The translations under genes and the position numbers were made by a program. This document shows, piece after piece, positions 3,850 through 51,540 of a stretch of DNA of 64,000 nt; within the stretch, counting starts at the first letter, position 1, and each line of letters opens with the position of its first letter. The stretch spans positions 1-64,000 of the forward strand of contig CALXOJ010000007.1 of NCBI GenBank assembly GCA_944390005.1, given 5' to 3'. The notes beneath the pieces are model-generated. The model was not told the origin of the DNA, ran no database searches, and was given only the letters and a program-made list of their open reading frames with translations. The DNA is from an uncultured Spirochaetota bacterium (GTDB lineage Bacteria > Spirochaetota > Spirochaetia > JAFGXN01).

Positions 3850-4895
3850 ACATTCGCCTCGGTAACGGATACCATTCGCTCCAACGCTTTACGCGCGTCG
3901 GCTGCCGTCTGCGGATCAACCGTCACTTCGTTGACGGCAGATGTTCCCCCTCTGATAATTCCGTCAATTTCTCTCAACACCGCAGCCAATTTTTCCGGAG
4001 TGATTTTATTCATGTCGGCGCATGGATACGAAGCCAGCGGCAGAACGGTTTTATCCGGACAGTCGAAAGAAAGCCGTTCGACAAAGCTCGATTCGGTACC
4101 GACACCCCAAACCGTTCCCGGCGCCGCCTCTTTCACCGTCCGCAGCAGAAATTCGGTCGATCCGAAACCGTCTGCACTGTGAACAACTTCATAATTGCAC
4201 TCCGGATGAACAATGACCGAAATTCCCGGATGTTCCCTTCTGATTGCTTTGACTTGATCCTCTGTAAAACGGTTGTGAATCGGACAGTACCCCTCCCAAA
4301 GGAACACTTTTGCCTGTTGTGCGTCGCCGTCAATGTTCATATCCGATCCGATCCGAGCTATATCGGAATTCTCCGTCAAGCCGCAGCCGACAGCGGTGTT
4401 GAATCCGAGTCGGGAATCAGGGGCAAATAATACCGGCGCTCCTGTTTTTAAAAAGTGTCTGAGAATTTTTTCCGCATTTGAGCTGGTACAGACAGAGCCG
4501 CCGGCGCGTCCGCAAACTGCCTTTACGGCGGCCGTCGAGTTCATATAAACAACGGGAACCGCCTCCTTTCCGCACGCTTCCCGAATACAATCGAGAGCCT
4601 TTGAAAGCTGCCGCTCATCGATCATGTCGGCCATCGGACAACCTGCGGAACGATCGGGAATGAACACCCGCTGGCGGCCGTCTGCCATGACAGCGGCGCT
4701 TTCGGCCATGAAAAGAACGCCGCACATAACGATGAAGTCAGCCTGTCCGGCGGCACAGTCGACAGCCAGCCGGTAAGAATCTCCGACAGAATCGGCATAT
4801 TTGACGATTTCCGGCCTCTGATAGTGGTGGGCGGCAATCGCAATGCGGGAACGGTGTTTGGCAATCAGCGCGCGGATTTCTTCGTCCGGACTCAT
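3846..4895 (-). CDS. nadA: Quinolinate synthase
   Basis: NadA condenses iminoaspartate with dihydroxyacetone phosphate to quinolinate using an oxygen-sensitive [4Fe-4S] cluster. The 349-residue protein has the typical AAHHYQRPEI N-terminus, the VGDSYRLA segment and cysteines in the FIVMCGVLFMAE, GSVCTSSNA and SYPCADMNKI contexts, which are the places of cluster ligands in the family. HPEC and GTESSFVERL are also family signatures. It overlaps nadC upstream and nadB downstream by 4 bp each, so all three should be made together. Confidence 0.97.
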   Translation of the reverse strand: MSPDEEIRALIAKHRSRIAIAAHHYQRPEIVKYADSVGDSYRLAVDCAAGQADFIVMCGVLFMAESAAVMADGRQRVFIPDRSAGCPMADMIDERQLSKALDCIREACGKEAVPVVYMNSTAAVKAVCGRAGGSVCTSSNAEKILRHFLKTGAPVLFAPDSRLGFNTAVGCGLTENSDIARIGSDMNIDGDAQQAKVFLWEGYCPIHNRFTEDQVKAIRREHPGISVIVHPECNYEVVHSADGFGSTEFLLRTVKEAAPGTVWGVGTESSFVERLSFDCPDKTVLPLASYPCADMNKITPEKLAAVLREIDGIIRGGTSAVNEVTVDPQTAADARKALERMVSVTEANV

Positions 4896-5749
4896 TGTTT
4901 CGACTCCCCGCGGTTTTTTCTCAGCGAAAAATCGAACGCCTCAACCGAATGCGTCAGCTCTCCGAACGAGACAAAATCCACTCCCGTCTCTCTGACAGAA
5001 GCCAATCGATCGAGATTCATATTCCCGGACGCTTCGGTTTCACAGCTGCCGCCAACCAACGCCGCCGCCGCTTTCATTTCGTCGTCGCTCATATTATCAA
5101 ACATAATGCGGTCAACCCGGCACGCCAACGCTTCCTTCACTTCATCCGCGTTGCGAACTTCGACCTCAACCGCATACCGGTCGCCCCATTTGGCGCGCAC
5201 CTTTTCGACGGCGGCGGACAATCCCCCGGCCGCATCTTGATGGTTGTCTTTGATCAGCACCATATCAAACAGCCCGATGCGGTGATTTTCGCCTCCGCCG
5301 CACTTGACCGCATACTTTTGCAGCAGCCGGTAACCGGGCAGCGTTTTCCGCGTATCAAGAATCCGCACTTTTCCTTCGGCGGCCTTCACCAGCCGAGCCG
5401 TCTTTGTTGCAACGGCGGAAAGATGACTTAAAAAATTGATTGCGGTGCGTTCGCCTTGAAGAATCGAAAGAACCTTCCCGGAGACGTCGGCAACACAATC
5501 GCCCTTCTTAAGCGCATCCCCATCGGAAAAATGAAAACTTACGTTTACGGAAGGATCCACCTTCGCCATCACTTTTTCAAAGAGGCGGCGGCCGCACAGA
5601 ACTCCTTCCGATTTGGAAATTAAATAAAATTCATCGGTTTCGTCGGAAAAGACAGCGGATGAAGTCACATCGCCGACGCCGTCCAAATCTTCCAACAACG
5701 CCATTTCGATTAAAATATCCTCATTGGAGGAAATCACATTTTCTTTCAT
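4892..5749 (-). CDS. nadC: Nicotinate-nucleotide pyrophosphorylase (carboxylating)
   Basis: NadC converts quinolinate and PRPP to nicotinate mononucleotide and CO2. The 285-residue protein shows GERTAINFLSHLSAVAT, ILDTRKTLPGYR and KCGGGENHRIGLFDMVLIKDNH, all diagnostic of the family. It is the first gene of the nad operon. The ATG at 5749 has no Shine-Dalgarno; instead a TATAAT box ends 8 bases upstream, so its mRNA probably begins at or beside the start codon. NaMN made here leads to nicotinate adenine dinucleotide, the substrate of LarB encoded at 53 kb. Confidence 0.97.
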   Translation of the reverse strand: MKENVISSNEDILIEMALLEDLDGVGDVTSSAVFSDETDEFYLISKSEGVLCGRRLFEKVMAKVDPSVNVSFHFSDGDALKKGDCVADVSGKVLSILQGERTAINFLSHLSAVATKTARLVKAAEGKVRILDTRKTLPGYRLLQKYAVKCGGGENHRIGLFDMVLIKDNHQDAAGGLSAAVEKVRAKWGDRYAVEVEVRNADEVKEALACRVDRIMFDNMSDDEMKAAAALVGGSCETEASGNMNLDRLASVRETGVDFVSFGELTHSVEAFDFSLRKNRGESKQ

Positions 5750-5794: not shown

Positions 5795-7381
5795 TCAGAT
5801 AACGATTTCTACCCCCCCCCCCCCGTCATCGGAATTTTTCTTAAAATTTTTCTCTCGGTACATATTTGTGTCGGCTTGATTCATGAGTTCAGCAAAATCC
5901 TGTTCGCTGCTGATGGTGCCGGCGGCGGTACCGATGGAAAATCCGCAGCGAATTCCTGGAAAATTCGGTAATTTTAAATTTTTTCGAATTCTTTTCCGCA
6001 GTGATTTGACCATTTCTCCTTCGGAAGAGTCCATTAAGACCACCAGAAATTCGTCGCCGCCAATTCTGAAGATCAAATCCGGTTTACGAACGCTGGAAAA
6101 AAGAGCGTCTACGCATGCTTTAATGTATTGATCACCGGCTGTATGTCCGAAAATATCATTAACGGCCTTTAAATTATCGATATCGCACATCATGATGACA
6201 ACGAACGGCTTTTTCTCGATAACTGCGTTTTCCTTAAGCCGCAGATAATGGCGGTTGTAAGCACCGGTCAGCGTGTCTTTGAACGCAGAATCTTCCATCA
6301 TCACCAAAAGTTGTCCGACACGGGAGATGTCGTTCAGCATATAAATAAAACCGATAAACCGCTTCCGTTTATCAAAAAGCCGCCTGACTTCAACATAATG
6401 AAGAGTATCGCCGTCGACCCCTTCAATTAAGTAAAAATTTTCAAGATCGGAGTCGTCTTTCCGCTCCCCAAAAGCAATTTCCTTTTTACGGAAATACTGT
6501 GCTAAATCATAAATTGAGAACATTCCTTCTTTTGACAACAACCCTTTTCTCTTTAAAAGCGCAGTCGTCGCCGCATTCATGTAAACAACGGTTCGTTTTT
6601 TGTCGGTAATCATCACCGGAACAGGAAAAATATCGCTGCCGTGTTTGGAGGCGGAGAGAATCAGTTCTTCCACACGGTCAAAATAAACTGCCATCCAGAT
6701 GAATACGCCGCACAGAAAATGTGTGATTCCGCCGCAGGCAAACAAAAGCTCCGGTGAAAAGCCCGGAAAAATCGTCGAAATTATATTTTGAGTAAATAGG
6801 AACACAACAGCCGCAATCAGCATTGCCACCGTCTTTTTATTAGGCGTCGATTTTCTGAAAAGCTTAATCAGCAGAAAAACCGTTCCCGCAACGGTCGCCA
6901 CATATCCGTAAATAAGATGAACATAGTACCACGGTCCGTAAAATTCAGGAATTCGCATCCCGAAGCGACTGATAAAAACGTATTCGTAAGAGAACATAAA
7001 CGGATAAAACGGATACAAAAGCGAAAACAGCGTTGTCGCAAAAGACATGATCATAAACGGTGCTAAAAACCGGTTGCTGCCGACAGTCGGCCACGTGTAA
7101 CACAAGGCAAAAGAAAACCAAAATGTGACGGTAAATGAATTAGCAGAAAAAATAAGGGAATTATAAAACGCCGCCGTTTCAGGAACGGAGGTCAGCGTGT
7201 AAGCAAGATAAGATAAATTCCACAGTCCGAAAAAACAGGTAAAAAGCTGAAGATACCGATAAATTCTGCCGTGTTCGCGGTACCGTTCACAGAGAAAAAA
7301 GACGCCGAATGCGACCATCGCCGCCAATACTCTGCCGATGATTCCGATTAAGTACGACATACTCGGGACGACATCAATCAC
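5795..7381 (-). CDS. Membrane-bound diguanylate cyclase (7TM-PAS-GGDEF)
   Basis: This enzyme likely makes cyclic-di-GMP. Seven hydrophobic segments fill roughly residues 10-235, as in the 7TM sensor regions of histidine kinases. A PAS-like domain follows (about 250-365), then a GGDEF domain (about 370-520) with the intact signature RIGGDEFLVV and the family start DTLTGAYNRHYL. The GTG start overlaps the sbcB stop in a GTGA, preceded by a G-rich Shine-Dalgarno; ATG 7360 is an alternative. The last residues are GGGGVEIVI, the glycines being encoded by 13 consecutive G on the coding strand. Losing or gaining one G would end the protein at once or swap its last residues, so C-terminal variants are expected. 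Confidence 0.9.
   Translation of the reverse strand: MIDVVPSMSYLIGIIGRVLAAMVAFGVFFLCERYREHGRIYRYLQLFTCFFGLWNLSYLAYTLTSVPETAAFYNSLIFSANSFTVTFWFSFALCYTWPTVGSNRFLAPFMIMSFATTLFSLLYPFYPFMFSYEYVFISRFGMRIPEFYGPWYYVHLIYGYVATVAGTVFLLIKLFRKSTPNKKTVAMLIAAVVFLFTQNIISTIFPGFSPELLFACGGITHFLCGVFIWMAVYFDRVEELILSASKHGSDIFPVPVMITDKKRTVVYMNAATTALLKRKGLLSKEGMFSIYDLAQYFRKKEIAFGERKDDSDLENFYLIEGVDGDTLHYVEVRRLFDKRKRFIGFIYMLNDISRVGQLLVMMEDSAFKDTLTGAYNRHYLRLKENAVIEKKPFVVIMMCDIDNLKAVNDIFGHTAGDQYIKACVDALFSSVRKPDLIFRIGGDEFLVVLMDSSEGEMVKSLRKRIRKNLKLPNFPGIRCGFSIGTAAGTISSEQDFAELMNQADTNMYREKNFKKNSDDGGGGVEIVI
5812..5824. repeat. C13/G13 homopolymer at the end of the diguanylate cyclase gene
   Basis: Thirteen consecutive C on the plus strand encode the GGGG near the C-terminus of the cyclase. 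With 12 G the frame hits TAG directly after the tract; with 14 G it runs on for about eight different residues. Confidence 0.95.
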
Positions 7382-17534: not shown

Positions 17535-18700
17535 TGCCGCGCATTTACTTTGATTGGGCTGCCTCCGCTCCGTGCGACCCGGAAGCAGCCGAAACCCTCT
17601 CTGCCGCCCTCAAACGCTATGCGGCCAACCCCTCATCTCGTCACACAAGCGGAAAAGAGGCTCGCGCCTGCTTGGAAACGTGCCGAAACGAGTGCGCCGA
17701 TCTGTTGAAAACCACGCCCGAAACCGTCGTTTTTACTTCGGGCGGCAGCGAATCCAATAACATTGTCCTTACCTCGTTTTTGACTAAACGGAGACAAATC
17801 CATATTCTCTCCGCACCGTTTGAACATCCGTCGGTCATCAACCCGCTGTTTGAATTAAAAAGCAGCGGTCACAAAGTCGAATTTCTCAAAACAACCTCCG
17901 AGGGCGTCATCGACACCGACGATCTGCGCCGAAAGCTGACGCCCGAAACCGCTCTCGTCTGCCTGATGCACACTCACAACGAAACCGGCGCCGTTCAACC
18001 GCTCTCCGAAGCCGTGCAGGCGGTGAGAGAGTTTGAAAGCGGCGGAAAACGAATTCACTTCCACTGCGACGCGGTTCAGGCCGGCGGAAAAACCGCCATC
18101 GACCTAACGGCAGCCGACGTCGATTCGGCGTCATTCAGCGCCCACAAATTCGGCGGCGCACGCGGCGCCGGCATTCTTTTCCTGAAAAAACCGCTTCAGC
18201 CGCTCTATCTCGGCGGAGGTCAGGAAAACGGTCTGCGGCCGGGAACGGAAAATCTTCCCGCCGTCGCGGCAATGACAGCCGCCCTCAAAAACAGAAATCG
18301 CTGCCGAGACGATGAGACCGCCGCCGCCCGCGAAATCAGAAGAAAACTGACGAATGCCTTTTCCCTGCGGCCGGAGATTGTCTTTCCCTTTCCCGAAAAC
18401 GGAGCAGAGTTTTCACCCTACGTGATGAGTATAGCCGTTCCGGGACTGCCGTCGGAAGTCGCCCAGCGGCTTCTGAGCGACCGAGGTTTTGATATTTCAT
18501 CCGGCTCCGCCTGTTCGTCAAACGACGCTGCCCGCAAACAGAAAATCAAAAATCCCCTCGGTCTCCCCCCTCGAATTGCCGAATCGGTTCTGCGTCTCTC
18601 GTGGGGACACACCACCTCTCCCTCCGACGCCGACGCTCTCATCAATGCGTTTGATGAAATCATAAAAGAACACCACACCCTTTTACGGCGGTCACCATGA
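17534..18700 (+). CDS. Cysteine desulfurase (NifS/IscS family)
   Basis: This pyridoxal-phosphate enzyme releases sulfur from cysteine. The 388-residue protein shows YFDWAASAPCDPEA, FTSGGSESNN, the PLP-lysine region SFSAHKFGGARGAGIL, and the mobile-loop cysteine in SSGSACSSN, which resembles the group I (IscS/NifS) loop. It overlaps thiI by 4 bp. This pairing is like the dedicated NifZ-ThiI pairs of other bacteria and suggests that it delivers persulfide to ThiI. No IscU or SufB partner is in the window. Confidence 0.93.
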   Translation: MPRIYFDWAASAPCDPEAAETLSAALKRYAANPSSRHTSGKEARACLETCRNECADLLKTTPETVVFTSGGSESNNIVLTSFLTKRRQIHILSAPFEHPSVINPLFELKSSGHKVEFLKTTSEGVIDTDDLRRKLTPETALVCLMHTHNETGAVQPLSEAVQAVREFESGGKRIHFHCDAVQAGGKTAIDLTAADVDSASFSAHKFGGARGAGILFLKKPLQPLYLGGGQENGLRPGTENLPAVAAMTAALKNRNRCRDDETAAAREIRRKLTNAFSLRPEIVFPFPENGAEFSPYVMSIAVPGLPSEVAQRLLSDRGFDISSGSACSSNDAARKQKIKNPLGLPPRIAESVLRLSWGHTTSPSDADALINAFDEIIKEHHTLLRRSP

Positions 18701-19875
18701 AACAACTTTGGTTGCTGAAAATCGGCGAAATTGCACTGAAAGGCGGAAACCGCTCCCTGTTTGAACGGCAGCTGAAAAAAAACATCCGCTTTCAATTAAA
18801 AGAACACCTGATCTCCTACACCGGACAGCGGGGGCGATTTTACGCCGAAACCGACGGTCTGAGCGAAGAGGAGACGGCAAAACGACTCTCCACTGTCTTC
18901 GGGCTTTCGGGATTTGCCGTATGTCTGAAAACGGAAAAAACTGCCGACGCCGTCATCGAAGCGGCGGCCGAAGTTGTCCGAAAGCATTTGGAACAAACAA
19001 AAACGGCGGCCGTTACGTTTAAAGCTGAATCACGCCGCGCCGACAAAGCCTTTCCGCTCGATTCCTACCGCCTCAACTGCCTTGTCGGAGACGCGCTGTG
19101 CGGCCGTTTTCCCCAACTGAAAGTCGACGTTCGCAATCCGCAGCTGACAGTCGGCATCGAAATCCGCGATCACGCCTACGTTTACGGCAACGGCACTGAA
19201 GGACCGGGCGGTCTTCCCGTCGGCTGCGCCGGCCGCGGCGTTCTGCTGCTCTCCGGCGGCATCGACTCACCTGTAGCCGGATGGCTGTGCGCCAAACGGG
19301 GCCTGAAACCGGAAGCCGTCTACTTTCACACCTACCCGTACACCTCCGGCGACTCTCTGGAAAAGGTCAAAACCCTCGCTCAAATTCTCTCACCGTGGAC
19401 GTGCGGATTAAACCTGTTCTGCGTCAACTTCACGGAAATCCAGCTGAAAATCAAAGCCGAAGCCCGCCCCAACCGCACAACGATACTCTCCCGCAGCGCG
19501 ATGATGGAAATCGCCACTCGGTTGGCATCCGAACGGCACGCCGGCGCCCTCGTTACCGGCGAAGCGCTCAGCCAGGTTGCCAGCCAAACCATCGAAACCC
19601 TGCGCGTCACCGGCAGCCACACCGACCTGCCCGTTCTCCGCCCCGTTATCGGTTTCGATAAGCAGGAAATCATCCGCATCGCCGAAAAAATCGGCACCTA
19701 CGAAACCTCCATCCTCCCCTATGACGACTGCTGCACCCTCTTCTCCCCCGAACACCCGGAAATTGCCCCCGATTTCGCCGAACTGCAAAAAGAGTTCGCG
19801 CGCCTGAATCTGTCTCCGCTGATTGAACAGGCAGCCGCCTCCGCAGAACGGCTTTACTTTCACCCCAAAAACTGA
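18697..19875 (+). CDS. thiI: tRNA 4-thiouridine sulfurtransferase
   Basis: ThiI adenylates and thiolates U8 of tRNAs, and may help make thiazole. The 392-residue protein has the ferredoxin-like and THUMP domains (start LLKIGEIALKGGNR) and the PP-loop LLLSGGIDSPVAGW at about 185. It also has the family segments TGEALSQVASQTIETL and LPVLRPVIGFDKQEI, and a CC pair in PYDDCCTLFSPEHP. It lacks the C-terminal rhodanese domain of enterobacterial ThiI, so it is of the shorter type. A GC-rich structured element begins about 20 bases after the stop. Confidence 0.95.
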   Translation: MKQLWLLKIGEIALKGGNRSLFERQLKKNIRFQLKEHLISYTGQRGRFYAETDGLSEEETAKRLSTVFGLSGFAVCLKTEKTADAVIEAAAEVVRKHLEQTKTAAVTFKAESRRADKAFPLDSYRLNCLVGDALCGRFPQLKVDVRNPQLTVGIEIRDHAYVYGNGTEGPGGLPVGCAGRGVLLLSGGIDSPVAGWLCAKRGLKPEAVYFHTYPYTSGDSLEKVKTLAQILSPWTCGLNLFCVNFTEIQLKIKAEARPNRTTILSRSAMMEIATRLASERHAGALVTGEALSQVASQTIETLRVTGSHTDLPVLRPVIGFDKQEIIRIAEKIGTYETSILPYDDCCTLFSPEHPEIAPDFAELQKEFARLNLSPLIEQAAASAERLYFHPKN

Positions 19876-19893: not shown

Positions 19894-20005
19894 TTTGGGC
19901 GAGTGCGCGCCTGACGGCGCGCACCGCGTCGACGGCGGGCGCGGTCTGCCTGGCGGCAGACGGCCTTGCGGCCCCCGCCGTGCCGCTCTCGCCTTCGACA
20001 GCGGC
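19894..20005 (+). ncRNA. Unassigned GC-rich multi-hairpin element, copy A
   Basis: Immediately after thiI, TTTGGGCG (19894-19901) leads into four nested or adjacent hairpins: an 8-bp stem 19904-19923; an outer 8-bp stem pairing 19932-19939 with 19974-19981; inside it, two abutting hairpins at 19944-19961 (7 bp) and 19962-19973 (GGCC-TTGC-GGCC); then a 6-bp stem 19982-20005. A second copy is found at 50117-50209 on the minus strand with the same order. Strand is given relative to the upstream gene. It could be a 3'-UTR RNA or a palindromic mobile unit; I do not recognise a known family. Confidence 0.5.
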
Positions 20006-20014
20006 AGCCCGCAC

Positions 20015-20047
20015 AAAAAAAGCGTCCTTGCCCAAAGGCAAGGACGC
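20015..20047 (-). terminator. Rho-independent terminator of GH16/InlB unit A
   Basis: A perfect 11-bp stem (20022-20032 with 20037-20047, loop CAAA) is followed on the minus strand by seven T. The same terminator, with one base different just beside the stem, ends the paralogous unit at 45967-45999. Confidence 0.95.
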
Positions 20048-20070: not shown

Positions 20071-21906
20071 TCAGCCGGCGGCGGCGGAAGCCGCTTCCGC
20101 AAGTTCGTAAAAGACCGCCTCTTGAATGGTCATCGTTGCCGAATCGGTGCCGCTGCTTTCTCTCCACAACTGCAATTTGACATCCGTACCAAGAGTCGGA
20201 GCCACAACGTTTTGAGTAGTATGGGAAGGGTTGCTATCCTCCGTCAGCGGAACGAATTTATTCTCTCCGTTAAAGAAGAATTTGACCGTTGTATCGTCAT
20301 TATTATCAGTATTGTCCGCTCCGTCAAAGAGGTAGCCGAGCGTAAACGGTTCATCCGCCGGTACGGTGTACGTTGCCCCTGCTGCTCCCGAATAAGCTCC
20401 GACACGGAAGGCGGTTCCGCCATCTGTACCTCCTTTAAAGGTGTTGCGCAAAAGCCAGAACCACGGTTCAGTCGACACGTCTTTCGAAATAGCCAATACG
20501 GCGCAAATGTTCGTAGTGTCGGAGTAAAGCACTTTCAATTCCATCAGAATGGGGTTAGATGAAGTGCTGCTATCCTTGACATTTTTAAATGTGATGGAAG
20601 CATTATTCGTACCGCTTTCCGTCGCTAATGAGTTAACGGTAATCTTGGCTCCTGTATCCGTACCTGCAATCGCATTATTAGTCTTATTATCATACGTTAC
20701 GTAAGTATCGTTTGCAAACGCAGAGGTCTCATAACGCTTCACATCTTTGTACAGATTACCGTCGCGCACCACCCAAGTGTCGGGGTAAACGGTTAAATCA
20801 GATAAACTAGCAGGGACTGAAATTTCCTCTCCGCTATCATTTACCGTATAATAGGTCAGAGTTAAATTGTACACTGCGGAGTCATCTCCTGTATTCGACG
20901 GCAGAGTCAAGGTTTTGGTATCAAAGTCGTAGCTCGCTGTTCCGTCACTCCCACCCGTTACTTCCACTCTCGACACGTAGGCATTTGCAGGCTCCAGCGT
21001 TTCCGTAAGCACAACCGTTGTTCCGCCGATCAAATATTCGGTACCGGCGGGCAAGGAAACAGTAACCCCTGTCAGCTGAATTCCTGCCCAAACCGCATAG
21101 AGGTCGATTCCGCTATCAATATTCTCGGCCGCCGCGGTCAATTCCGCTCCATCGGCATAAGCAATGTCTGTCGACTCTGCGCTCGTCGCCCAACCTTTAA
21201 ACTCATAACTGTCGTATGCGAATGTGCAGGACTCCAACGCCGTCGCCTCACCGACTGTCACAACCTGGGTATAGGAATCCTGCGCCGCTAAATCGGCCGG
21301 CGGATTGCTGTGAAAAGTCACTGTAACCGGAGAGTTTGCCAGCGACGGAGTGCCTTTGACAGTTGCCTCTCGGCTTGTCTTTCCGTCTGCCGTCACAACC
21401 GCCGTAAAGGTGTATGCCACATCGTTCTCCAATCCCGAAATCGTCACCGTGTCGTTGGGTTCATTCTGCGGAGTCACCTTCACCGCTTCGCTTGCGCCGT
21501 CATAAGTGATGCTGATTTCTTCATAAGGAATTTGAACGAGATCCCAGGTCAAAATCACCGCTGCGTTTGCGCCGACAGCCGCAAAGTTTTGCAGCGGCGC
21601 CGGCTTCCACTGCGCATAGAGTTTCACCGCAGCGGATACGGTGATTTTTCCTTTGTCTGCGTAGCTTTTTCCGGACCCGTCAGCCGCTTCGTTCCAACCG
21701 TCAAACTCATAACCCGCTCGGTCAAACTCGTTCGCATTCAGCGTCGTCTCCATTCCGACTGTCGCATCCTGATCCGCCATGGTTCCGACTCCTCCGTTGG
21801 CACTGAAGGATATCTTAACCGCCTCTTCCGTCGGCGGACAGCCAATCAACGCCGCCGCCATCGCCATAAAAATCAACAATTTCGCATAAGTTTTTTTCAT
21901 TTTCAT
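20071..21906 (-). CDS. Lipoprotein with InlB-type repeats and unassigned C-terminal domain (companion of GH16 A)
   Basis: The 611-residue protein has a lipoprotein signal with lipobox ALIGC (Cys near 23). A Listeria-Bacteroides (InlB B) repeat follows (about 32-105, GYEFDGWNEAADGSG... YAQWKP), then a fibronectin III-like domain (about 107-195) and a second InlB-type repeat (about 200-275). A beta-rich stretch leads to a C-terminal domain (about 415-600) with the signature WFWLLRN, GTAFRVGAYSG, EPFTLGYLFDG and VKFFFNGENKFV. That last domain recurs in the lipoprotein at 40990-42903. The gene starts 18 bp after GH16 A and shares its transcript; GGAG sits 8 bases before ATG 21906. It is probably a surface glycan-binding partner of the glycosidase; this is inference. 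Confidence 0.8.
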   Translation of the reverse strand: MKMKKTYAKLLIFMAMAAALIGCPPTEEAVKISFSANGGVGTMADQDATVGMETTLNANEFDRAGYEFDGWNEAADGSGKSYADKGKITVSAAVKLYAQWKPAPLQNFAAVGANAAVILTWDLVQIPYEEISITYDGASEAVKVTPQNEPNDTVTISGLENDVAYTFTAVVTADGKTSREATVKGTPSLANSPVTVTFHSNPPADLAAQDSYTQVVTVGEATALESCTFAYDSYEFKGWATSAESTDIAYADGAELTAAAENIDSGIDLYAVWAGIQLTGVTVSLPAGTEYLIGGTTVVLTETLEPANAYVSRVEVTGGSDGTASYDFDTKTLTLPSNTGDDSAVYNLTLTYYTVNDSGEEISVPASLSDLTVYPDTWVVRDGNLYKDVKRYETSAFANDTYVTYDNKTNNAIAGTDTGAKITVNSLATESGTNNASITFKNVKDSSTSSNPILMELKVLYSDTTNICAVLAISKDVSTEPWFWLLRNTFKGGTDGGTAFRVGAYSGAAGATYTVPADEPFTLGYLFDGADNTDNNDDTTVKFFFNGENKFVPLTEDSNPSHTTQNVVAPTLGTDVKLQLWRESSGTDSATMTIQEAVFYELAEAASAAAG

Positions 21907-47805: not shown

Positions 47806-49959
47806 TTAATTTGACGCTTCCGCCGAACTTTCCGGTACGTAGTAAGCAATGTAATCAGCTTCTACCCACACAGGAAGATAATTAATACTGTTTGCGGCAG
47901 GAACACTTCCCCATCCCGGTCCGATTTCCGTCGACAGAAAGACATTCATCGGCGCCAGCGGAACGACGGTTAACCGTCCGTTGTAACCGTATTGATTGTA
48001 AGTCGTGCTCCAGCCGGAAGTATTGACATTCTGATTGTTGTTACCGTTTGCCGTTGACGCACCGCTCAAACTGTTGTTTTTAACCAAGGACGCCTGCGTA
48101 TTGTCGTTGTTCGCCCGGAAATAATGCACCCAATCTTTGTTATAGTAATAAGTGACTTGATCGTCCGTCCATTGCAGCGCCAACGAATACCAATTATCCT
48201 GCATAACGGTATCATCACCCGATACTGTCAGTTTTTGATAAAACATGGACATATAAGTAGCGCCGTATGTATTACTCCATCCGTTGTGATACTGGTTGAC
48301 GTAATTGATGACCCTCGGAGCCCCGACTGTCTGTTCCATTAAGTCAAATTCATGAACCGGACCGTGAAGCCAGAAGGCAAACCAAGCGCCGGCCCCGCTT
48401 CCGAAACGAATGTTGTCGGAGTAACCCTTGTAGCGGGTTCTTAACTGGGCAATATAAAACCCTTTTCCGTAAAGTTCATTTGTAATTGCCGCGCCGGAAA
48501 TAAAGTTTTTAACGGCTCCGCTCGGATTGATGTCGGTGAATCCGCCGAGCGGTTTGGTTTTGTCAGCTCCCAGATAGAAAATACCGTTGTCGGCGTCGGC
48601 GGCCATGTGTTTGGACATCAGCATTCCGTTTTTCGCTTCAACAGTGCGGAAGTCCCAGACGCCGGATTTACGCACGTGCGAACCTTCTTCCAGTTTTTCG
48701 CAGCCCCACAGGCGGGCAAAATCATAGGCCGGGTCGTCGGGATTTTTCCGCGCATCCAGATAGGCGTCGTTATTTTTATAGTTCAACCCGTTGAACGGAT
48801 AGTTGAAGTCGTCTCCCCAGCTCAACACATATTTGGTATAACCCGCAACTTCGGTTTCGGAGTAATTTCCCTCGTTGTCAAGCCATATCTCGGCAGGATA
48901 TTCGCGGCTTCTTTTAACCGTAATTTTATCACCGAAAAGCTTATCGCTTCCCCATGTTAAATCGGCTAAAACCACGTTCATTCCCGTCAAATCGGGCGTC
49001 AAAATCCGAACTGTTGCCGTAAAGTCGTAGTCGGCATTCAAATCCAACGCAGTTTCAATAATGTCGCCGTAACCGCCGGAAATTTCGATTTCATTTGCCG
49101 CTCCCGTCAGTGTTGCCATCCAAACGGTTTGTTCCGTATTCAAAATCACATCTTCTCCGGAGAGTTCGTTCATCAATACCGTTACATCGGGATAGCTGAG
49201 AGCCGCAATCATTGTTGCGACCGGAGTACCATTTATTTCTGTTTTTCTTAAAATATTGATATGCGCAGGCGTTACCGTCCCTGTTTTCTTGTTGACAACA
49301 GGAGAAAAAATAACGGGATATTCATTGACGGACGAGGTGATGTCGTTATCGTTTTCATCATAGAAGGTCAGATTTACCGTCAGTTCCGAAAGATCTTTAA
49401 AAGCGCCAATGGGAATGGTGTGTTCGTTACTGATCGCGTCTTTAATAAGAGCTTCCACTCCATTAACGGAAGCTGTCACTTTTGCCGGCATGACGGAGGG
49501 CTGAAGTTCTTCAAGGGTACTCGAGAGGTCTTTTAAGACGATAGAAATACTTCCATCAGAGATTTTCCACTCTAAATTCAAGAGCGGAGGTTCGATTGTC
49601 AGTTCATATGTGCCTTTAACATTCGAGTCAACCGCGGATGTTGCCGTAATGGTCACAATTCCCGGTTTTAATCCGATAACCGTGCCGAATTCGTCAACGG
49701 TTGCTGTCGAAATATCGCTGCTTGTCCATAAAACCGTCTGATCGGCATCTGCCGGCGAAACTGTTGCCGTCATCAAGACTTTCAATCCGGTGGAAACTTC
49801 CGTTTCATGTGAAAACACGGAAATTGAAGTCGGCTTAATCTCGGGCGATCCGATTTCCCCTTCAATTCCTTCCGGGCAACCGAACAGCAGTGTGGAAATG
49901 CAAAAAAGATACAGGGCTAAAAGGCGAAGCCTTCCCCTCTCTCTCTCTCTCTCTCTCAT
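47806..49959 (-). CDS. GH16-family glycosidase lipoprotein B, with phase-variable (AG)10 start
   Basis: The 717-residue protein is a paralogue of GH16 A in the same order: lipobox LFGC, Big_2 domain (about 40-120, VLWTSSDISTATVDEFGTVIG), unassigned middle, and GH16 domain from about 370 with SWGDDFNYPF and EFDLMEQ (Glu near 537 and 542). ATG 49959 is preceded by AGAGGAG and a promoter, which excludes the longer upstream frame to 50208. Codons 2-7 (R-E-R-E-R-E) come from (AG)10 directly after the ATG. Nine or eleven units would lead to early stops, so the gene looks switchable. Surface beta-glucanase/galactanase-like; substrate unknown. Confidence 0.85.
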   Translation of the reverse strand: MRERERERGRLRLLALYLFCISTLLFGCPEGIEGEIGSPEIKPTSISVFSHETEVSTGLKVLMTATVSPADADQTVLWTSSDISTATVDEFGTVIGLKPGIVTITATSAVDSNVKGTYELTIEPPLLNLEWKISDGSISIVLKDLSSTLEELQPSVMPAKVTASVNGVEALIKDAISNEHTIPIGAFKDLSELTVNLTFYDENDNDITSSVNEYPVIFSPVVNKKTGTVTPAHINILRKTEINGTPVATMIAALSYPDVTVLMNELSGEDVILNTEQTVWMATLTGAANEIEISGGYGDIIETALDLNADYDFTATVRILTPDLTGMNVVLADLTWGSDKLFGDKITVKRSREYPAEIWLDNEGNYSETEVAGYTKYVLSWGDDFNYPFNGLNYKNNDAYLDARKNPDDPAYDFARLWGCEKLEEGSHVRKSGVWDFRTVEAKNGMLMSKHMAADADNGIFYLGADKTKPLGGFTDINPSGAVKNFISGAAITNELYGKGFYIAQLRTRYKGYSDNIRFGSGAGAWFAFWLHGPVHEFDLMEQTVGAPRVINYVNQYHNGWSNTYGATYMSMFYQKLTVSGDDTVMQDNWYSLALQWTDDQVTYYYNKDWVHYFRANNDNTQASLVKNNSLSGASTANGNNNQNVNTSGWSTTYNQYGYNGRLTVVPLAPMNVFLSTEIGPGWGSVPAANSINYLPVWVEADYIAYYVPESSAEASN
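49937..49956. repeat. (AG)10 dinucleotide tract directly after the GH16 B start codon
   Basis: Ten CT units on the plus strand (AG in the gene) begin at codon 2. The present number keeps the signal peptide in frame. Minus one unit reaches TGA after about 30 codons, and plus one reaches TAG within about 15 codons. Confidence 0.95.
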
Positions 49960-49980
49960 AGATTTTCTCCTCTGTATTTT

Positions 49981-50009
49981 ATTATCAATGCTGAAACGAG
50001 AAAAGTCAA
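49981..50009 (-). promoter_or_regulatory. Promoter of GH16 unit B
   Basis: TTGACT (50004-50009), a 17-bp spacer and GATAAT (49981-49986) on the minus strand. The -35 box and upstream A-tract match those of GH16 unit A. Confidence 0.75.
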
Positions 50010-50106: not shown

Positions 50107-50116
50107 AAGCGCGTCA

Positions 50117-50209
50117 GGCGCCCGGAGGAGGCCGCAAGGCCGTCTGCCCGTCGGGCAGACCGGGTCCGGAGGGCGCCGACGACCGCCGCAGGCGGTCGGG
50201 ACGCCCAAA
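50117..50209 (-). ncRNA. Unassigned GC-rich multi-hairpin element, copy B
   Basis: Read on the minus strand from TTTGGGCG (50209-50202): an 8-bp stem (50180-50198), then an outer 7-bp stem pairing 50177-50171 with 50123-50117. This encloses two abutting hairpins, GTCTGCCC/GGGCAGAC (50160-50142) and GGCC-TTGC-GGCC (50141-50130). Copy A has the same plan. The first stem and the outer stem have different sequences in the two copies but remain fully paired. It starts 16 bases after the DUF362 gene. Confidence 0.5.
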
Positions 50210-50225: not shown

Positions 50226-51203
50226 TTATTCGATTTCAACCAATCGGTATTGACGACTGCCGAGGTTGATTTTTGCCGCGTGGTCAAGCGTGTGCAGGCC
50301 TTGGCGGCTTTCAATGCGTTCTTTTAATGCCGCAGAGTCTTCGGCTGCATAGACCATGTCGATGGCGGCTTGGTCGGCTGCCAGCGGATCAAGCGAAGCG
50401 ACGATGCCGATGTCGTGCATGTCCGGTTCTGCCGGATTTCCGTTGCAGTCACAGTCGACGCTCAGCCGATTGAGGACGTTGATGAAAGCGATGTTTTTTC
50501 CCATGGCGTCACACAGACCTTTGGCAGCTTCGGCCATCGACTCCAGAAAGGCGATTTGATCGCCGCTGATGGAACCGTTTGTCGTTTTTCCGCCGGAATG
50601 GATGTAGACTTTGCCGCTTTCGAAATCTCCCCAACCGCTGCCAAATCCGATTGAGAGGTTTTTGATTGCTCCGCCGAATCCGGCCATGGCGTGACCTTTA
50701 AAGTGGGAGATGACCAGATATGAGCCGTAGTTGTTGAAATGGCTGCCGACAATGTGTCCTTTTGTCAGGTGTTCGGCGCCTTCAATCGGCAGATAGACGA
50801 CGTCTTCTTCGTCCAACAGATCAAAGTCGGCGATTTTCGTAAAGCCGTGTTCTTCGGCGACTTTGTGATGTTCCGCATTGGAATTGCGGCGGCCCGGATA
50901 GGCGGTTTTGCACTCGACAATCACGCCGTCAACGGCCTTGACCGTCTTTTCCAGCAGTGCGGGGCGCAGGTAATTGGATGCGGGCGGTTCGCCGGTGCTG
51001 ACTTTGACGCCGGTTTTTCCTTCCGGTTTCCAACCGAGGGCTTCGTAGACTTTCAACATTCCGTCGGCGGAAATGTCCTTCGTGAAATAGACCACCGGAG
51101 CCGATTTGTCGTCGGTTTGGTGGGTCAGTTTTTCTTGAGAAAAGGCTGTTGCACACGTGAAGAGGAGCGCCGCTCCCATCAATAAATGCAGAATTTTTTC
51201 CAT
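50226..51203 (-). CDS. Exported DUF362-family protein
   Basis: The 325-residue protein has an N-terminal signal peptide (HLLMGAALLFTCATAFSQ) followed by a DUF362 domain: YLRPALLEKTVKAVDGVIVECKTAYPGRRNSNAEHHK, then VVYLPIEGAEHLTKGHIVGSH, FKGHAMAGFGGAIKNLSIGFG and DIGIVASLDPLAADQAAIDMVY near the end. Members often occur with or fused to ferredoxin domains; none is present here, and the activity is not established. ATG 51203 (GGAG 10 bases upstream) was preferred to the longer frame beginning at 51326, which lies in the preceding gene. It is the last gene before element B and the terminator. Confidence 0.8.
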   Translation of the reverse strand: MEKILHLLMGAALLFTCATAFSQEKLTHQTDDKSAPVVYFTKDISADGMLKVYEALGWKPEGKTGVKVSTGEPPASNYLRPALLEKTVKAVDGVIVECKTAYPGRRNSNAEHHKVAEEHGFTKIADFDLLDEEDVVYLPIEGAEHLTKGHIVGSHFNNYGSYLVISHFKGHAMAGFGGAIKNLSIGFGSGWGDFESGKVYIHSGGKTTNGSISGDQIAFLESMAEAAKGLCDAMGKNIAFINVLNRLSVDCDCNGNPAEPDMHDIGIVASLDPLAADQAAIDMVYAAEDSAALKERIESRQGLHTLDHAAKINLGSRQYRLVEIE

Positions 51204-51216
51204 TTGTTTGTTTCTC

Positions 51217-51540
51217 CTATTGTTCCGAACTGATTTTTCGGTCCGAACTCCGATGGTTCCTTTTTTCGTTTCTCTTTTCGAAGAAAAAGAGAACGGCAAA
51301 GACGGCAACGGCAGCAGCGACGACAATCACTCCGAGAACAGCGTTGTCAATCGAGAGATCGAAAAACGGTTCACCGGCGGCAATAGCCGCAAATCCGTCA
51401 ACGCACCACATTAACGCTGCCGCCGTGCAAATCAGCGCGGCGGTTGCTAAACTTTTGTATCCTTGACCTCTGCGCTTATTTGAAACAAAATACAGAACGC
51501 CGAAAACAGCCGCCGCGACGGCGGTAAATATCAGACACAT
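51217..51540 (-). CDS. Small membrane protein (107 aa), unknown
   Basis: Three hydrophobic helices (about 1-20, 30-53 and 66-88) and a charged C-terminal tail (KRNEKRNHRSSDRK). No domain recognised. It overlaps the preceding gene by 1 bp and is followed 13 bp later by the DUF362 gene, so it belongs to the operon running from smc. Confidence 0.65.
   Translation of the reverse strand: MCLIFTAVAAAVFGVLYFVSNKRRGQGYKSLATAALICTAAALMWCVDGFAAIAAGEPFFDLSIDNAVLGVIVVAAAVAVFAVLFFFEKRNEKRNHRSSDRKISSEQ

Follow-up and report, generated by a model that had tools for sequence, protein, structure and literature searches.

Folded palindromic repeats at gene ends of an uncultured spirochaete, read as relatives of Flavo-1

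Two GC-rich elements located shortly after stop codons in the DNA of an uncultured spirochaete raise the question of whether they are copies of a selected RNA structure or of a mobile palindrome directed to the ends of genes. The stretch analysed (the window) comprises 64,000 nucleotides, positions 1-64000 of contig C7 of a 1.95-Mb draft genome that is 97% complete (G000). Comparison was made with the draft assembly of a sister species (G001), the one further genome of this genus that a search of relatives recovered, and with a genome from another family within the same class (G050).

Both elements were present where a preliminary description of the window had placed them, and were found to share an architecture in which an outermost helix (P1) encloses a hairpin (P2) and a stem (P3), with P3 carrying two further hairpins (P4 and P5; Table 1). 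On the strand bearing the motif GGGCG, the order is the first P1 arm, P2, P3 enclosing P4 and P5, the P1 partner arm and then CTTCG. As described previously, P2 and P3 differ in sequence between the two copies while pairing perfectly in both, and GGCC-TTGC-GGCC is common to the two. The folded core had been drawn too small, as P1 was missed in both; copy 2 therefore starts at about 50111 and not at 50117, with the first arm of its P1 lying outside the earlier coordinates. Folding z-scores of both copies ranged from -3.7 to -5.1 on either strand. Copy 1 belongs to a variant designated type B and copy 2 to type A, the core of the latter reading GGCGCCC-GGA-GGA...TCC-GGA-GGGCGCC.

Table 1. Coordinates, within the window, of the two folded elements, their helices and the adjoining genes
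Feature	Position	Strand	Remarks
thiI (tRNA uracil 4-sulfurtransferase)	18697-19875	+	TIGR00342, 329.5 bits
Copy 1 (type B), whole folded core	19897-19998	- folds best	GGGCG to CGCCTTCG; E 2e-20
Copy 1 P1 arm	19898-19903		GGCGAG
Copy 1 hairpin P2	19904-19923		TGCGCGCC / GGCGCGCA; perfect pairing
Copy 1 stem P3	19932-19981		ACGGCGGG (19932-19939) / CCCGCCGT (19974-19981); perfect pairing
Copy 1 hairpin P4	19944-19961		enclosed by P3
Copy 1 hairpin P5	19962-19973		GGCC (19962-19965), loop, GGCC (19970-19973); enclosed by P3
Copy 1 P1 partner arm	19988-19993		CTCGCC
InlB/List-Bact repeat surface-protein gene	20071-21906	-	convergent, far side of copy 1
Copy 2 (type A), whole folded core	50111-50206	+ folds best	E 9e-26
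Copy 2 P1	50111-50115 / 50200-50204		GCGTC / GACGC
Copy 2 stem P3	50117-50177	+	GGCGCCC (50117-50123) / GGGCGCC (50171-50177); perfect pairing
Copy 2 P3 internal loop	50124-50126 / 50168-50170		3x3, GGA/GGA; inner pairs GGA/TCC
Copy 2 hairpin P5	50130-50141	+	GGCC-GCAA-GGCC
Copy 2 hairpin P4	50142-50160	+	GTCTGCCC / GGGCAGAC
Copy 2 hairpin P2	50180-50198	+	CGACCGCC-GCA-GGCGGTCG; GNA triloop; perfect pairing
DUF362 gene beside copy 2	50226-51326	-	PF04015, 1.1e-36

The GGGCG of copy 1 lies on the plus strand and starts 21 bases past the stop codon of thiI, and that of copy 2 lies on the minus strand, 19 bases past the stop codon of the DUF362 gene. Directly downstream of copy 2 is a gene with a Big_2 domain (47806 to about 49981, minus strand), with a TC tract of approximately 10 units (plus strand; 49938-49981) right after its ATG (ATGAGAGAGAG...); it is likely to encode a phase-variable surface protein. 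A run of approximately 13 C at 5810-5824, just upstream of a minus-strand gene (4892-5749), is possibly another such tract. The block of conserved gene order shared with contigs C5 and C17 of G001 stops at about this position (5810-5824), at contig ends, while the first 254 bases of the window lie inside a tandem repeat (register of about 21 bases) that aligns many times to contig C5 of G001.

A covariance model was built from 15 copies and used to search the genome and its relatives, as the preliminary description had proposed. In G000, 23 confident type A or B copies (E below 1e-11) were found scattered over many contigs, together with one truncated copy, and the weak matches belonged mostly to a longer sister repeat (type C) with at least 19 core matches, giving the whole family roughly 40 members in this genome. 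The sister species has a similar copy number. The type A/B model gave no copies in the other genus of the same family and almost none across the rest of the class, where matches were weak only, and similarity searches of phage and plasmid collections found nothing. A pattern scan of viral contigs returned 46 scattered matches, which were taken, on pattern alone, for chance at 19 specified bases. The same was concluded for single matches to Streptomyces, Sorangium, Planctomycetota and others in a pattern scan of GTDB, in which the sister MAG was hit many times. Tandem arrays with a unit of approximately 57 bases (GCGTTAAAA...GATTCGCCAAA...CGAAG) were also observed in G000 (C3:56872-57256, C3:209906 and C3:214929); the first and last of these run straight into a type B element, and the unit resembles the tail (GATTC-C-AA) found beside many elements.

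Most type A and B copies were predicted to form a single cloverleaf on the better-folding strand, with a few adopting another minimum-energy fold. Paired changes were identified across copies in P1 (TC/GA, CG/CG, AG/CT and TG/CA), in P5 (GGCC to GGGC/GCCC to GAAC/GTTC) and in P3 (C-G, A-T and T-A); the P1 of copy 1 (GGCGAG/CTCGCC), for instance, covaries with GCGTC/GACGC, GGCGCG/CGCGCC and GGCGTG/CACGCC of other copies. Pairing was found in 87% of cells, compared to 35-52% with the arms slid, and double changes in 27 cells, compared to 7.3 in shuffles; covariation exceeded 500 of 500 shuffles and all slid controls. The copies are related to one another, and neither the paired changes nor the copy counts are therefore independent events. 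Copying errors in palindromes can also mimic selection for pairing. Scarcity of copies, absence of covariation and a match to an ordinary insertion-element end, which the preliminary description had named as outcomes that would tell against it, were not what was found in G000.

An Rfam scan of the window at the gathering threshold identified a tmRNA and one tRNA but no Flavo-1 (RF01705), and the comparison with Rfam proposed earlier gave a divided result: the type A and B copies of the window had no RF01705 match up to E = 5, while the cores of type C are sub-threshold Flavo-1 (21.6 to 26.8 bits against a gathering threshold of 42 bits). Type C has the same ends as types A and B (TTTCGGGCGCG...CGCGCCTTCG), shares their P1 and, in several copies, has nearly the same P2; its core on the better-folding strand reads GGGATTGAAGCGGAAAT...ATTGCAGCGGAAAGCCC. 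The stem of Flavo-1 is broken up by 3x3 loops of GNA/GNA form; one of these is retained, on the Flavo-1 strand, in type A copies, including copy 2, and none in type B (copy 1). An intermediate was identified at C11:43142, where the AGGGATT...AAGCCCG of Flavo-1 is retained with a plain helix inside. On the basis of the shared ends, the architecture and this intermediate copy, and not of an Rfam match, we group types A, B and C with Flavo-1 in a single family whose cores can be exchanged.

Weinberg and others proposed Flavo-1 as a candidate, or probable, non-coding RNA of Bacteroidetes (PMC2864571). It ranks among the most abundant bacterial small-RNA families, its function not being known (PMC9029176), and our literature search found no functional paper on it. 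In Flavobacterium psychrophilum, matches to Flavo-1 lie sense or antisense to transcripts indistinctly, with many outside transcribed regions (PMC9723704). In another genome (G197:C1:2583000-2650000), eight Flavo-1 copies in one orientation were observed in the sequence coding for the N-termini of tandem ORFs; several of these ORFs are large and Rhs/YD-repeat-like by eye, and the element is translated as a repeated leader (RTAIEAEILFAV...KKIGAESAVL). This run was considered as an integron array and rejected, since it consists of large ORFs in tandem, with the element coding for their N-termini.

The strand on which these elements fold, left open previously, was decided in favour of the one with the GCAA loop, opposite to that on which the motif had been written. 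With DNA parameters, the better-folding strand was the opposite of the GGGCG strand in 51 of 51 distinct copies, and the same strand was the more stable in 46 of 51 with RNA parameters. For the window copies, folding energies were -68.3 kcal/mol on the minus strand against -64.0 on the other (copy 1) and -64.4 kcal/mol on the plus strand against -61.2 (copy 2). Loops of the GNA or GNNA type in the RNA model made up 92 of 158 on the better-folding strand and 5 of 158 on the other, while wobble pairs in type A, small in number, were 9 and 3, respectively. Copies showed no overall bias relative to replication direction (10 vs 12); a post hoc split gave 2:10 for type A and 7:2 for type B.

These features bear on the alternative that carries most weight, which we nevertheless consider unlikely, namely that the elements are functional structured RNAs (Flavo-1-like small RNAs or 3’-UTR elements), kept in many copies because each would regulate or protect the transcript of its gene. 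Such a fold, with covariation and GNRA-type loops on one strand, is typical of RNA, placement at gene ends is common, and the naming of Flavo-1 as a candidate RNA agrees with this; gene-end placement together with folding would also fit an RNA role, and a transcribed role of the better-folding strand is possible. However, in most copies that strand runs antisense to the gene with the adjoining stop codon, no element-specific promoter was demonstrated, and the F. psychrophilum matches, with no sense preference and many of them untranscribed, argue against it. The loops of the better-folding strand comprise 37 GNA, 28 GNYA and 27 GNRA, so that GNA and GNYA together (65) outnumber GNRA, which suits DNA hairpins in the light of a passage of PMC6479982 that, with its reference 47, presents GNA loops as extraordinarily stable DNA minihairpins. 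As GNA triloops are exceptionally stable in DNA, the loops alone do not indicate RNA, and in the folding models single-stranded DNA accounts no less well than RNA for the preferred strand and the kinds of loop.

Placement relative to genes was examined across both genomes, with the GGGCG end adjoining the 3’ end of a gene in 31 of 43 copies; in G000, 12 of the 23 copies lie 4-25 bases past a stop codon in the same orientation. Several gene ends differ between the two species in the elements that they carry. The counterpart of copy 2 in G001 (C17:14438) is a chimera consisting of the right half of copy 2 and another left half, which, with its left flank, is that of a copy at C1:306739. One gene end carries both a type B and a type C copy in G000, and in G001 a single type C copy that takes the place of type B, 20 nt past the same stop codon. 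At another, the copy of G001 is internally deleted and its flank is different. No clean empty site was found between G000 and G001, the best case being one of differing element content, and a 285-bp difference at C17:12605 considered as an element insertion proved to be a coding deletion in G001.

Breaks in gene order between the two species were found to cluster at these elements. Once ends explained by contig ends or local indels were excluded, 14 of 19 synteny-block ends had an element no more than 150 bp away in one or both genomes, compared to 7% expected for random positions in the same stretches. The exact figure should be treated with caution, as the stretches were chosen around elements. 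The window copies represent two such breaks, with G001 joining the block that ends at 19926 to the block that starts at 50111, with 243 bases between. Both assemblies are drafts, although paired reads will normally bridge a repeat the size of this element (approximately 125 bases). Several contigs of G000 (among C10, C11, C9, C15 and C16) were observed to stop at a type C or similar repeat or no more than 300 bases from one, near-identical repeats being expected to break short-read assembly. On the reading favoured here, the repeats mark rearrangements at gene ends and probably cause them.

Homologous recombination alone yields mosaic copies and breaks at repeats, and it is conceivable, if rather improbable and a little more so than an RNA role, that these are ordinary old repeats which provide nothing more than homology for RecA-dependent recombination, with template-switching preserving the fold in the absence of function or mobility. 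Palindrome-templated repair can create compensatory changes. Against it, the same strand is preferred consistently, which together with the GNA loops suggests that selection acts on a single folded strand, and the state of Flavo-1 in G050 implies that elements of this kind can move. Flavo-1 cores occur there in at least 65 scored copies, and 36 places match a pattern of the inverted end GAGCCTGTTTAA plus a Flavo-1 core. The units are 158-160 bp in length with inverted ends (GAGCCTGTTTAA/TTGAACAGGCTC); all seven complete ones are flanked by TNA, and five of the seven have identical 3-base TNA target duplications, indicating that the cores in G050 ride in transposon-like units.

On balance, we favour the reading that the window copies are non-autonomous palindromic repeats of the Flavo-1 kind that spread and recombine as DNA. 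One strand would form the cloverleaf, closed by P1 and comprising the P2 hairpin and a P3 stem carrying P4, P5 and, in type A, the GNA/GNA internal loop, which by analogy may consist of sheared G.A pairs. The copies would spread and exchange as DNA, and the single-strand fold would be what is recognised or formed, presumably as single-stranded DNA in replication or repair and less likely as RNA. Recombination between copies would then move chromosome blocks, and genes may stay intact in the process because the copies sit past stop codons. With regard to the choice first posed, between a selected structure and a palindromic mobile unit at gene ends, the many copies, the compensatory changes and the gene-end placement are upheld; RNA nature was not shown, and movement within this genus is inferred, from differences in element content between the two sequenced species. 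A broader view, in which the Flavo-1 family as a whole, filed as a small RNA, is a folded single-stranded DNA site of recombination and mobility with G-N-A loops and exchangeable cores, and in which spirochaete chromosomes are reorganised there, at gene ends, by a so far undescribed enzyme, is offered as a speculation that we regard as doubtful.

Comparison with known systems delimits this reading. REP elements are short, palindromic and intergenic and fold as single strands, and terminators sit past stop codons. The repeats described here share with REP/BIME sequences a short palindromic form and an intergenic position, and inverted pairs, frequent in those systems, also occur here (type A or B placed back to back with type C, at C7:64.8-65.2 kb and at C1:140.6-141.0 kb); their placement past stop codons agrees with that of terminators. 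It is nonetheless very improbable that they are intrinsic terminators or REP elements moved by a Y1 transposase (RAYT). The fold is larger, with three hairpins, and no match to the Y1 transposase (PF01797) was found in G000 or G001, 5 of 14 control genomes being positive. The structure is not followed by a T-run on either strand (in the window copies, the GGGCG strand has a T-run ahead of it and the other strand an A-run behind it). Near copy 1, a terminator-like hairpin separate from the element lies at about 20024-20046. Least probable of all are integron attC-like sites, recombined as folded single strands by a tyrosine recombinase: these are likewise palindromic, located past stop codons in one orientation, variable in sequence with structure kept, strand-specific in folding (on the bottom strand; PMC2727003) and points of block exchange, whereas here the copies are dispersed with no cassette array, no GTTRRRY/RYYYAAC core boxes were seen by eye at the element ends, and no integron integrase (TIGR02249) scored above the cut-off in G000 or G001 (best in G000, 79 bits against 265; weak matches of this kind were given by all 14 control genomes).

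Another likeness is to miniature inverted-repeat elements (MITEs) with an IS5-type TNA target, as seen in G050, where the unit ends resemble those of the IS5 group and the body of the unit consists of a Flavo-1 core with P1/P2-like flanks. Many short non-coding copies are likewise present in G000 (23 of type A/B and 19 type C core matches). Around the copies of the G000 genus, whose unit ends are not sharply defined, inverted ends of this kind were not seen and no target duplication was identified; beyond P1 (5-6 bp), no terminal inverted repeat was detected in their flanks (mean 8.7 bases observed, 8.7 with shuffled partners).

The nearest relative is Flavo-1 itself. Its GATTGAAGCGGAAA is replaced in the window copies by plain GC helices, and the Rfam model, with 76 positions, leaves out P1 and P2. 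Readers of genomes should be aware that the closed structure extends beyond what this model describes, and that relatives whose core has changed are overlooked by it. Common to the two are a P3, in type A with one GNA/GNA 3x3 loop kept on the same strand, purine-rich linkers and, in some spirochaetes, many copies per genome. The data connect Flavo-1 with a broader group of repeats that share its fold and differ in sequence, and the exchange of cores, the breaks in gene order and the target duplications of one genus make the question of RNA or mobile DNA directly testable for Flavo-1.
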